Virus record (IMG/VR): IMGVR_UViG_3300027770_000247
Span: 1-24,370 of that record
Length of the DNA stretch: 24,370 nucleotides
From: a virus
Strand: one strand, 5' to 3'
The stretch's first letter is position 1, and every line of letters starts with the position of its first letter. A program made the position numbers and the translations under genes. Shown in pieces: positions 5,629 to 8,716 of this stretch. The notes beneath the pieces were generated by a model. It saw only the letters and a program-made list of their open reading frames with translations. It did not search any database and was not told where the DNA came from.

Positions 5629-5676
5629 CAAAGACGCTCTAAGATATCCTACACGTAGGACACCTTGGAAGGACTT
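5629..5676. repeat. Intergenic repeat R2 with a compensatory change
   Basis: Second copy of the 48-bp unit. The central hairpin is TCCTACACGTAGGA instead of TCCTGCAAGCAGGA: one G-C pair has become A-T, so the pairing is kept although the sequence changed. That is direct evidence that the hairpin is under selection. The end of the repeat overlaps the TAA stop codon of the 138-aa gene. Confidence 0.75.
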
Positions 5677-6091
5677 AACAACCGGCAGCAGTCCATAGTT
5701 TGTTGCTAATATCACGCACATCATAAGGTGTTGAGGCAGAATTACCAAACTTACCAGTGTAAAGCGCAGCTAAGGCAATACCTAAGGCAATATTATTTTT
5801 CCACGTAGGGCATCCAGCTTTAACCCATTGCTTAAGATGCAACTTAACACGCTTGCTAACTTTTAATTTGTATACACACATCATCATCAGCATGTCTTCA
5901 AAATCACCAGACATTGAAGCATCAGACAAAAGGCAGTCACCAACAGCTTTAGACAACGAAGGCCTAGTCCGAAGGTGCCTGTCAGTAGCCAAGAAGCCAC
6001 AAGGGTGGCCAATTTCAAGTCCCCGAGGGCCGGGATTACTGCTGGGTTTTAAGTTTACTAGGGTTGATACCCGATTATAACGTTTAGCCAT
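5675..6091 (-). CDS. Hypothetical protein, 138 aa
   Basis: It starts MAKRYNRVSTLVNLKPSSNP with AAGGAACTATC in front of the ATG. The N-terminal 45 residues are Pro/Gly/Arg-rich and probably disordered; the rest is helical, with a Met-rich helix (EDMLMMMCVYKLKVSKRVKL) and a Gly/Ala-rich helix (NIALGIALAALYTGKFG). The second hydrophobic helix is short for a membrane span. The gene lies between repeat copies R2 and R3. I do not recognise it. Confidence 0.65.
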   Translation of the reverse strand: MAKRYNRVSTLVNLKPSSNPGPRGLEIGHPCGFLATDRHLRTRPSLSKAVGDCLLSDASMSGDFEDMLMMMCVYKLKVSKRVKLHLKQWVKAGCPTWKNNIALGIALAALYTGKFGNSASTPYDVRDISNKLWTAAGC

Positions 6092-6110
6092 GATAGTTCC
6101 TTAAACAGAG

Positions 6111-6158
6111 CAAAGACGCTCTAAGATATCCTGCAAGCAGGACACCTTGGAAGGACTT
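6111..6158. repeat. Intergenic repeat R3 with hairpins
   Basis: Third full copy of the 48-bp unit, identical to R1 in the central hairpin. Read on the - strand it also has AGAGC (6116-6120) pairing across a short loop with GCTCT (6107-6111), which brings the next ribosome binding site (AAGGAAC) right behind a second stem. The stop codon of the shortened gene 6157-6306 lies at its right end. Confidence 0.75.
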
Positions 6159-6306
6159 ATTTACTTGCCAGAAGAAACAAATCTCGCAGTTGCAGCTGAG
6201 ATTCAAACACACTCCCGCCCCATGCAGACAAGAGGTGACCACTTCTCGGGGTAAACGACAAGCCATACCCACGCTTTAAACAGATAAACAGAAGTATTAA
6301 ACGCAT
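6157..6306 (-). pseudogene. Internally deleted paralogue of the 123-aa gene (49 codons left)
   Basis: It has the cassette leader AAGGAACTATCATG and ends in repeat R3, so its borders match a complete gene. The body is only 49 codons (MRLILLFICLKRG at the start, LRDLFLLASK at the end). A 17-bp block (6286-6302) is identical to 5467-5483 inside the 123-aa gene, and the terminal RDLF matches that gene's end. The shared FNTSV segment falls in a different frame from the ATG, so the copy has lost about 220 bp and shifted frame. It may still be translated as a short peptide, but it looks like decay after duplication. Confidence 0.6.
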
Positions 6307-6325
6307 GATAGTTCCTTAAACAGAG

Positions 6326-6376
6326 CAAAGACGCTCTCGGAAGGCACCAACAAAGGAGCCAACCGGGAAAGCCCTT
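6326..6376. repeat. Degenerate repeat copy R4
   Basis: The first 12 bases (CAAAGACGCTCT, 6326-6337) are identical to R1-R3, and the leader TTAAACAGAG before them matches R3. After 6337 the copy diverges and loses its T residues on the + strand, ending AAAGCCCTT before the stop codon TTA. With a 3-base insertion the last 16 bases match R3 at 11 positions, and both T of CCTTGG in R3 are G here. The hairpin is lost. Confidence 0.55.
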
Positions 6377-7001
6377 AAGCAGCAGACACACCGCAGAAGT
6401 AACCAGGGCACACACGACCGGAAGAACCGGGAGCACCCCAAACGTCAACCACCGCACCGGAAGCACGGGCAACACGAAGAGCGGCAACCAGAGCCACAGC
6501 AGCCGAAGAGCCAACACCGCCAAGCCCCGAAGCCAAGCACACCAACAAGCGCCCACCAACCACAGCCACAACAGCCAAGCGACGAGCGTCCCACGACAGC
6601 GACGAAACCACGCCAGAACAAACAGGCAGGAACGAAGAAGACGGGACAACGCGAGAACCAACACGAAGCAAAGCAGGAACACCAGAACCCGAGACCAGAG
6701 GACAGGCAAAGGCAACCGGCCCAGCAACCGAAGCGGCAGCAGCGCCAGGAACAGCGAAAGAGCGAACCAAGGACGCAGCAACGCCAGAGAGAACAGAAGA
6801 AGAAACCACAAGACACCTCACAAGCGGACGAACCGCAAAGACCGGGCAAGACGCCCAACAAGAACAGCGACCACCGCACCAGCAGACCGCCCAAGGGAAA
6901 CAAGGGGGGCCACGCAAAGAAAACAGGGGAAGCTCAAACCACCACCTGATTCTTTCACACATTCTACGAGCAGAACGTCTCTCAGGTGGAGACAGGGGCA
7001 C
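6375..7001 (-). CDS. Possible hypervariable or A-free protein, up to 208 aa
   Basis: This frame is the most gene-like of the three open - strand frames here. Its codons show strong three-base periodicity (GCT, GTT, GGT, TCT, CGT), and it ends in TAA inside the degenerate repeat, as the other cassettes do. From about residue 24 on, nearly all residues come from the ten amino acids whose codons need no A (F, L, S, P, C, W, R, V, A, G). The exceptions are Asp138, Asp186, Tyr201 and an AGG Arg codon at 62. Only GTG 7001 or the internal ATG near 6962 can start it; ATG 7005 is out of frame. The C-terminus is PGYFCGVSAA. It has 15 Cys. Function unknown; absence of stops alone is not evidence here. 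Confidence 0.4.
   Translation of the reverse strand: MPLSPPERRSARRMCERIRWWFELPLFSLRGPPCFPWAVCWCGGRCSCWASCPVFAVRPLVRCLVVSSSVLSGVAASLVRSFAVPGAAAASVAGPVAFACPLVSGSGVPALLRVGSRVVPSSSFLPVCSGVVSSLSWDARRLAVVAVVGGRLLVCLASGLGGVGSSAAVALVAALRVARASGAVVDVWGAPGSSGRVCPGYFCGVSAA
6401..6933. other. 533-bp tract almost free of T on the + strand
   Basis: Only three T occur in 533 bases (6445, 6589, 6818), with a T-free run of 228 bases at 6590-6817. The neighbours on both sides have roughly a quarter T or more. Composition is about 39% A, 33% C and 28% G by my count of several lines. Because every stop codon contains both T and A, such a strand has no stop codon in any of six frames, which creates long spurious open frames. 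The tract ends abruptly at 6934, next to a hairpin at 6942-6989. I cannot name a known element with this composition. Confidence 0.9.
6942..6989 (-). other. Two-stem hairpin at the edge of the T-free tract
   Basis: A perfect 8-bp outer stem (CCACCTGA at 6942-6949 with TCAGGTGG at 6982-6989) encloses a 7-bp inner stem (6959-6965 with 6972-6978) over a six-base loop. The single odd pair in the inner stem is a G-U wobble when read as - strand RNA but an A-C mismatch on the + strand, so the fold favours a - strand transcript. It would lie near the 5' end of the message for the A-free gene. Confidence 0.5.
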
Positions 7002-7005
7002 CCAT

Positions 7006-7078
7006 AAAAAATTACACTAAAATATCCTCTCAAAAATTTTATTATAATTTTTTTATATGACACAAGGAAAAATAACAA
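7006..7078. promoter_or_regulatory. AT-rich divergent promoter zone
   Basis: This 73-bp gap separates - strand genes from + strand genes. It is dominated by A and T runs. ATTATAAT at 7041-7048 is its own complement, so a TATAAT -10 box is present on both strands at almost the same place (+ strand 7043-7048). No good -35 is seen at the standard spacing on either side. AAGGA in front of the terminase ATG is the ribosome binding site (7066-7070). Confidence 0.4.
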
Positions 7079-8716
7079 ATGGCAGCAGATAATGGCATCA
7101 AACTAAAAGCACTCAGAGAGTTAAAAAAGAGAGCCAAGCTTGATGAATACAAAGATAACTTCGAGTTATTTGCCAAAGAACAAATTAAAATACTCCCCAA
7201 AGATTCTTCCAAGGGGTTCCTACCTTTTAACTTCAATGCAGCACAACATATTGTAAATACAGCTATTGAGAAACAATTAAAGGAAAAGGGTAAAGTAAGG
7301 GCTATTATTCTTAAAGCACGACAGATGGGTCTTTCCACATTAACCACTTCCAGGGTATATTGGAAAGCATATTTAAACCCATTCCACAAGTCAGTTGTCA
7401 TGGCGCATGATTCAGCTACTTCCGACGCTCTCTTCACAATGTCCAGAAACATAATCGATCATATGGATCCGACCTTCAGGCCAGAATTTAAAAAGTCTAA
7501 TGCAAAAGAGATTCAATTCCTGCACAACGATTCCGGGTATCGTCTGTTCACAGCAGGTGCTCCGGAAGCAGGTCGAGGCCAGACACCCACCATTTGTCAC
7601 CTTTCAGAGGTAGCATTTTGGGGGCATGACACAAAGATTCTGTCAGGTTTATTCCAGGGTATTTCAGAGGCTCCCGGCACAGAAGTTATTCTTGAATCCA
7701 CTGCAAATGGTATTGGTAATGAATTTCACAGGTTATGGTTAGGAGCTATTTCCGGGGAGAATGATTACATTCCTGTTTTTGTTCCGTGGTTTCTTATGCC
7801 TGAGTACAGCCGAAGCTTACCTGATGGTTTTGAAAGAACATCCGAAGAAGAAGTACTTGTCACCCGCCATACATTAAGTAATGACCAATTATATTGGAGA
7901 AGGTTGAAGATTGCAGAGAGTGGTGTTGATAAATTCAGACAAGAATATCCTTCCACATGGGAAGAAGCCTTTCTTGTTACAGGATCTAATGTATTTAATC
8001 TTGAGAAGTTATCTCAACTTATACCACAACCTATTCTTGCCCACAGAGAATTTAACTTTACATCCCGCATGATGGAAGATGCCAGGCAAGGTTCAATTGA
8101 AATATTCAAGTATCCTACCTTTGAAGATTCTTTTGCCATAGGAGCTGATGTATCTCTTGGGGTAAACAAAGATTACTCATCATGTGTTGTTATGAATGCA
8201 AAGAAGGAGGTATGTGCTGTTTACAGGAATAATACTATTGATCCCAGTCAGTTTGGCGATCTTTTGTTTTATCTGGGTCGTTACTACAATAACGCACTAC
8301 TTGCTGTGGAATCCAACTCAATGGGCATTGCTACTCTCAACAGACTTACCCAGATGAATTATGTCAACATGTATTATCAGACAAAGATGGCCAATGTTTC
8401 CAAGGAAGAAGGTAACCGCATCGGGTGGAGGACTACTTCTGCAAGTAAACCGGCTATTATCGGATTTTTAAAGAATGCCATTGAGCAGGAAGAGATACTT
8501 ATTCCTTCCCGAACAATTATCGGTGAATTAATGAACTATGTTTCAAATGATAATGGCAAAACTAATGCTTCTTCCGGATATAATGATGATACAGTGATAG
8601 CTCTGGCCATTGTTCTTGAAGTAATCAGAACACATGGCGACAGATTAACAACAAACAGCGTACCTTTCTCACAAAAGATGGGTTCATTTCAACAAATAGA
8701 AACAAAGTGGTTGTAA
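7079..8716 (+). CDS. Terminase large subunit (DNA packaging ATPase and nuclease), 545 aa
   Basis: It pumps DNA into the empty head and cuts the concatemer. The ATPase half has a terminase-type Walker A, KARQMGLST (79-87), a Walker B with catalytic Glu (HLSEVAFW, Glu177), and the coupling motif LESTANG (205-211). The C-terminal RNase H-like nuclease has acidic residues in the expected order: GADVSLG (Asp357), AVESNSMG (Glu411) and YNDDTVIA (Asp503/504). The length is normal for the family. The start has AAGGA upstream and follows an AT-rich divergent region. No small terminase gene precedes it, which is unusual for the head gene order. Confidence 0.93.
   Translation: MAADNGIKLKALRELKKRAKLDEYKDNFELFAKEQIKILPKDSSKGFLPFNFNAAQHIVNTAIEKQLKEKGKVRAIILKARQMGLSTLTTSRVYWKAYLNPFHKSVVMAHDSATSDALFTMSRNIIDHMDPTFRPEFKKSNAKEIQFLHNDSGYRLFTAGAPEAGRGQTPTICHLSEVAFWGHDTKILSGLFQGISEAPGTEVILESTANGIGNEFHRLWLGAISGENDYIPVFVPWFLMPEYSRSLPDGFERTSEEEVLVTRHTLSNDQLYWRRLKIAESGVDKFRQEYPSTWEEAFLVTGSNVFNLEKLSQLIPQPILAHREFNFTSRMMEDARQGSIEIFKYPTFEDSFAIGADVSLGVNKDYSSCVVMNAKKEVCAVYRNNTIDPSQFGDLLFYLGRYYNNALLAVESNSMGIATLNRLTQMNYVNMYYQTKMANVSKEEGNRIGWRTTSASKPAIIGFLKNAIEQEEILIPSRTIIGELMNYVSNDNGKTNASSGYNDDTVIALAIVLEVIRTHGDRLTTNSVPFSQKMGSFQQIETKWL

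Follow-up and report, generated by a model that had tools for sequence, protein, structure and literature searches.

The window, that is, the whole stretch of viral DNA analysed here (24,370 nucleotides; IMG/VR record IMGVR_UViG_3300027770_000247, positions 1 to 24,370), contains a conspicuous tract between two gene arms, of which the one to the left of the tract is read leftward, while the terminase large subunit gene (TerL) and later genes are read rightward. On the minus strand, the elements follow each other as an AT-rich, C-poor zone, a boundary motif, an A-free leader, an open reading frame (ORF1), about 37 nt of A-free 3' sequence and a hairpin-bearing repeat:

7079..8716, plus strand: gene for the terminase large subunit, which opens the opposite arm and served as anchor in the search for relatives
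7036..7063, minus strand: weak sigma70-like leftward promoter match, GTGTCA-16-TAAAAT (one found, 0.6 expected by chance)
6999..7058, minus strand: AT-rich zone upstream of the boundary, C-free (G-free on the plus strand) by base composition
6947..6961, minus strand: conserved boundary motif, TGATTCTTTCACACA on the plus strand, with the minus-strand consensus (C)TTTGTGTGTGNNAAAGAATCA, ending in AAAGAATCA
6338..6933, minus strand: A-free segment (T-free on the plus strand) made of leader, ORF1 and a short 3' part; 6 A in 596 nt, conserved in relatives
6820..6933, minus strand: A-free untranslated leader, whose frame is not kept between relatives (56-nt and 1-nt indels)
6816..6819, minus strand: Shine-Dalgarno-like GAGG, its A being the isolated T at 6818 of the plus strand; upstream sequence TTGTGAGGTGTCTT, then GTG
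6375..6809, minus strand: ORF1, 144 aa, GTG start at 6809 and TAA stop at 6375-6377; A at codon positions 1/2/3 = 0/3/0
6304..6337, minus strand: 34-bp repeat with an AGAGC-GTCTTT-GCTCT hairpin and a ribosome-binding site, leader of the next gene, at which the A-free segment stops; second copy at 6089-6122
6157..6306, minus strand: second leftward small gene, 49 aa, beginning MRLILLFICLKRGYG, with near-normal third-position A (0.22, L001 copy)

The sequence-only reading had described an almost T-free tract of 533 bp with a sharp right edge at 6933/6934, and this description is borne out. Positions 6401-6933 of the plus strand hold 207 A, 181 C, 142 G and 3 T, with a binomial probability of 2.4e-61 for three T or fewer in 533 bases at 25% T, and its T-free runs measure 228, 143, 115 and 44 nt, the longest run elsewhere in the window being 28 nt. 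The low-T score of 518 for 6338-6933 compares with a maximum of 43 in 200 first-order Markov simulations of the window, and depletion is confined to T, the best scores for the other bases being 26 (A), 61 (C) and 60 (G). The T-poor stretch extends further left than the 6401 given previously and reaches 6338 (6 T in 596), so that its left end lies just past the stop codon (6375-6377) of a minus-strand gene. It had also been recognized, correctly, that loss of T on the plus strand equals loss of A on the minus strand, from which the adjacent genes are read. The few exceptions are the two ORF1 Asp codons and the Shine-Dalgarno sequence, which account for the three T's within 6401-6933, and a Tyr codon, which accounts for the T at 6400. 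In each of these three codons the A is the second base, no other internal A is present in ORF1, and its TAA stop retains A as well.

The substitution pattern marks ORF1 as a real coding gene, since changes are biased towards third codon positions: 19 substitutions separate the L001 and L002 versions, distributed 3/2/14 over codon positions 1/2/3 with 97% amino acid identity, and the same bias is seen for other pairs. ORF1 homologues were detectable at 31 loci (about 20 distinct), all of which also contain TerL, and in these A makes up mostly 0.00-0.02 of codon positions 1 and 3, with a maximum of 0.07, and 0.06-0.17 of position 2, mainly in Asp/Glu/Tyr-type codons. The disappearance of synonymous A's indicates that the constraint lies on the nucleotide, and a relative with the same reading frame and normal composition, which the sequence-only reading had named as a refuting case, was sought and is absent from these 31 loci. 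It could be argued that an unusual amino acid composition of ORF1, or a use of U-rich codons, is the cause, and the protein is indeed rich in Ala, Val, Ser, Arg and Leu; however, the lack of A extends to synonymous third positions and to untranslated sequence on both sides, leader and 3' part alike, and members with only the leader exist, which makes a protein-level cause very improbable. Two variants were observed: the ORF1 version at L217:3001-3387 carries a C-terminal extension rich in Glu, Asp and Tyr and nevertheless avoids A at codon positions 1 and 3, and L015:2569-2803 retains a truncated ORF1-like start (MSFSSLASWSSSVPVVGAVSPVSAPF), which suggests that ORF1 was lost in some relatives.

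Sequence searches with ORF1 returned no PHROG match and no significant Pfam match, and no copy of the gene turned up in 84,980 prokaryote genomes within the sensitivity of the search. The ORF1 of the window and the first ORF of Roseobacter phage CRP-7 match an L093-type family in position and composition and have a similar pattern of residues; homology to this family looks plausible by eye but is not significant in hhalign comparisons. For the L093 homologue, AlphaFold (AF2) predicts a 95-residue domain with pLDDT > 90, for which matches (best Foldseek E 0.016, VIA Z up to 8.5, without sequence support) are mostly to OB folds, taken here as a beta barrel with b-b-b-a-b-b order; the predicted domain thus resembles OB folds weakly, a fold-level likeness that has no bearing on function.

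Concerning the leader, a coding role was rejected as its frame is not conserved. Conserved blocks are present in it and a conserved fold is absent: RNAalifold on 25 leaders gave -0.47 kcal/mol and no conserved base-paired structure, and the minimum free energy of the leader (z = -0.6) is not unusual. A structured regulatory RNA was therefore rejected, and structure does not seem to be the selected trait. Avoidance of A begins shortly downstream of the boundary motif, and in CRP-7 and many relatives the A-free segment is preceded by a zone poor in C. Such C-free or C-poor zones also lie directly upstream of the A-free segment at L005:7732-7923 and L011:5344-5464, the latter being built of repeats like ACTAAAATTCC. 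In G001 (L084-L087), CTATTAGGTACCG is repeated in nine copies (reverse CGGTACCTAATAG) and looks, from its sequence, like a candidate promoter for a phage-encoded single-subunit RNA polymerase; related CCTAATAGAGA sites are found upstream of terL in relatives. On the distal side, repeated leader elements of 34 and 49 bp with the AGAGC-GTCTTT-GCTCT hairpin (the 49-bp element at 5629-5677 and 6111-6159) stand ahead of successive leftward genes, and are possibly processing or terminator-like elements.

The same interval was examined in relatives from independent metagenomes, retrieved with the TerL anchor, the boundary motif, the CRP-7 TerL and ORF1, and an A-poor segment was found at the equivalent place upstream of TerL at 76 loci (38 non-redundant), including that of the cultured CRP-7. 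Together these segments comprise 18,683 nt with 2.0% A, compared to 34.6% in the more distal leftward region of the same viruses. The tract of L001 is identical to that of the window, and L002, L003 and L043 carry a version with 95.5% identity in which the shared T-free part contains no substitutions involving T. In two relatives represented by whole long contigs (60 and 63 kb), the tract is the sole segment depleted in A or T. An assembly or sequence artefact, which had been listed among the possible causes, has practically no probability left given dozens of independent assemblies, the conserved reading frame and a cultured phage. No A-poor segment was seen within the fetched flanks of the L044-L080 group (up to 68% TerL identity), in seven members of which ORF1 was not found, nor in the partial stretches read of the more distant Pseudoalteromonas H6/1, Vibrio 1.182.O and Manatee Spring podovirus.

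CRP-7 (MK613349) possesses an A-free leader and first ORF of 610 nt at 57384-57993, with nine A's only over 57384-57994, located in the ATG start, in Asp/Glu/Lys codons and in the TAA stop. This phage resembles the window in its gene-arm layout, in having a phage RNA polymerase and in its TerL (57% identical), and differs in that the homology of its ORF to ORF1 lacks statistical support. For the earlier suggestion of a packaging element no positive evidence emerged; the tract holds a conserved protein gene, and the CRP-7 unit lies about 3 kb from terL. In the CRP-7 record, a hypothetical protein (CRP7_gp72) is annotated at 57271-57966 (L126:2972-3667), antisense to the A-free unit. Gene callers are readily misled here because every frame of a T-free strand is open, and stop-free leaders could host new genes. 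No mention of this composition was found in passages of the paper on the CRP-7-type group (PMC6918029).

At the 5' edge, A over the relatives amounts to 32% in one 20-nt bin and 1% in the next, and downstream it recovers, as an average over relatives, from 1% to about 35% across about 1 kb. This apparently smooth gradient is partly a mixture of unit lengths, single viruses often being sharp at the 3' edge: in CRP-7, A remains at 2-6% until the leader of the next gene and then rises to 34%, and in most ORF1 carriers it jumps to about 20-30% no more than 50-200 nt past the stop. Not every edge is sharp, the second gene being moderately A-poor in some lineages (third-position A 2-11%). Where ORF1 is missing, about 100-200 nt of A-free leader remain and the gene behind them is intermediate or normal in composition, that of the MYTILN family being normal even 150 nt from the edge; the leader is therefore the common core and ORF1 the common extension. 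These observations bear on the idea of a DNA-level element, such as a replication origin, an R-loop zone or a genome end, in which T (plus strand) or A (minus strand) would be harmful in single-stranded form. The sharp edge where the gene arms diverge, beside a noncoding zone that is poor in C and in some relatives carries repeats, would suit such an element, as would the averaged recovery over about 1 kb, and contigs seemingly end near the region more often than expected by an informal count. However, the 3' edge follows gene units, as CRP-7 illustrates, and a DNA-level element is considered unlikely. Many contigs start no more than about 450 bp upstream of terL (L004, L012, L016, L019, L021, L028 and L030), which may mean that the genome physically ends here or that assemblies break in a variable region.

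With respect to the process that maintains the tract, a mutagenic reverse transcriptase or a deaminase had been proposed, and if A's were continuously mutated, C, G and T changes would also be faster, because each new A would be converted to another base. Comparing non-A fourfold divergence between ORF1 and TerL in a small set of six pairs, some of which share members, gave 9.2 vs 21.6%, 7.6 vs 8.9%, 17.2 vs 16.5%, 16.1 vs 19.7%, 16.0 vs 10.5% and 39.3 vs 40.2%, that is, ratios from 0.43 to 1.5 with a mean of about 0.9, so that ORF1 is not faster overall. Moreover, the mutual proportions of T, G and C stay roughly constant while A rises with distance, without an A-to-G signature, and a search for a reverse transcriptase domain (RVT_1, PF00078), with positive controls in E. 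coli and others, found none in nine near-full-length relatives. A local mutational bias turning A into other bases, of the diversity-generating retroelement or deaminase kind, would likewise leave only selection-protected A's in place; on the evidence just given it is improbable. As ORF1 shows no overall acceleration, no reverse transcriptase was found in the nine relatives and T:G:C proportions are roughly constant, purifying selection against single A's, rather than hypermutation, seems to maintain the tract. The residual A's have no preferred neighbouring bases, which indicates that the disadvantage belongs to the single base whatever its neighbours, and on this ground sigma-dependent pausing at -10-like elements, TpA-binding silencers and motif-type RNase sites were set aside.

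Taken together, we propose that, in a lineage of water-borne, marine podoviruses, the tract would be the first transcription unit read leftward, presumably early in infection, consisting of an untranslated leader and often ORF1, whose coding strand purifying selection would keep almost A-free by acting on the RNA. The first messenger after infection would then be spared by adenine-dependent processes in the infected cell, the most plausible hazard being ribonucleases that need A to cleave mRNA, either host toxins or a shut-off factor, and genes further along would be expressed once the threat is controlled. Sites containing A are required or preferred by RelE, HigB, MazF and toxins like them. 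A transcript lacking A under selection, one of the options raised initially, is the best supported of those options, and an A-free first messenger that escapes such a hazard, most plausibly A-requiring ribonucleases, is put forward as a tentative explanation with a real chance of being correct. An RNA-level cause, either escape from A-dependent cleavage or ATP limitation, is favoured because the A-free stretch tends to match one transcription unit and A is kept mainly where the messenger needs it, although any model would predict that A's on which the messenger depends are retained, and a constraint on the T-free template strand or on DNA in single-stranded form would serve equally well. Against messenger protection, the first gene behind the A-free leader is normal in L026 and some others, which is not directly predicted, and in some lineages the second gene is A-poor too. 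A scan of early genes from one genome revealed no A-specific nuclease. The L002 genome encodes an RNA ligase, which would fit an RNA-cleavage setting and proves nothing.

On the other hand, the first unit may be transcribed when ATP is low or being destroyed, in a starved host or under an ATP-degrading defence. A context-free effect of a single nucleotide on one strand of the first unit fits such substrate limitation at least as well as cleavage, but downstream genes with normal A content must still be made, leader-only viruses would gain little, and a starved cell is also short of UTP, GTP and CTP, all of which makes ATP-sparing transcription rather unlikely. Put more broadly, and with slightly more reserve than for the explanation proposed above, an A-free first messenger might be a general means by which a phage lineage sustains expression of its first gene while RNAs that contain A are under attack or impossible to make, a strategy in which one letter of the alphabet is omitted from an entire transcription unit.

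To our knowledge, no element of such a kind has been described, and the open-access literature contained nothing relevant on adenine-free or thymine-free phage tracts. A conserved gene unit purged of one nucleotide over hundreds of bases points to a strong single-base selection pressure in infected cells, and since the cultured CRP-7 carries the unit, its cause is directly testable; finding it would expose an adenine-keyed defence or shut-off activity, or a new rule of early phage transcription.

Among known systems, diversity-generating retroelements are alike in causing adenine-specific change on one strand. Here, in contrast, A is purged and not diversified, and this identification was rejected because the nine relatives lack a reverse transcriptase, as noted, and no template/variable repeat pair differing at template A's emerged: the template copy whose search had been advised was not found in the window record, which contains only an exact 34-nt repeat of the adjacent leader. 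Phages with 2-aminoadenine (Z) genomes also treat adenine as special, and a dATP/dGTP diphosphohydrolase N-terminal domain (PF18909) occurs, without PurZ, in 3 of 10 relatives (G001:24970-25251, G002:16533-16823 and G005:4448-4738); in the present viruses, however, A is normal elsewhere in the genome, and a Z genome was rejected given the absence of PurZ/adenylosuccinate synthetase (PF00709) from the ten genomes, the control being positive in 14 of 14. Finally, phages avoid recognition sites such as restriction sites and ribonuclease motifs, which is similar in that a nucleotide pattern harmful to the phage is selected out of its sequence, whereas the avoidance described here concerns a single base in any context, over about 100-880 nt and at one place of the genome only.
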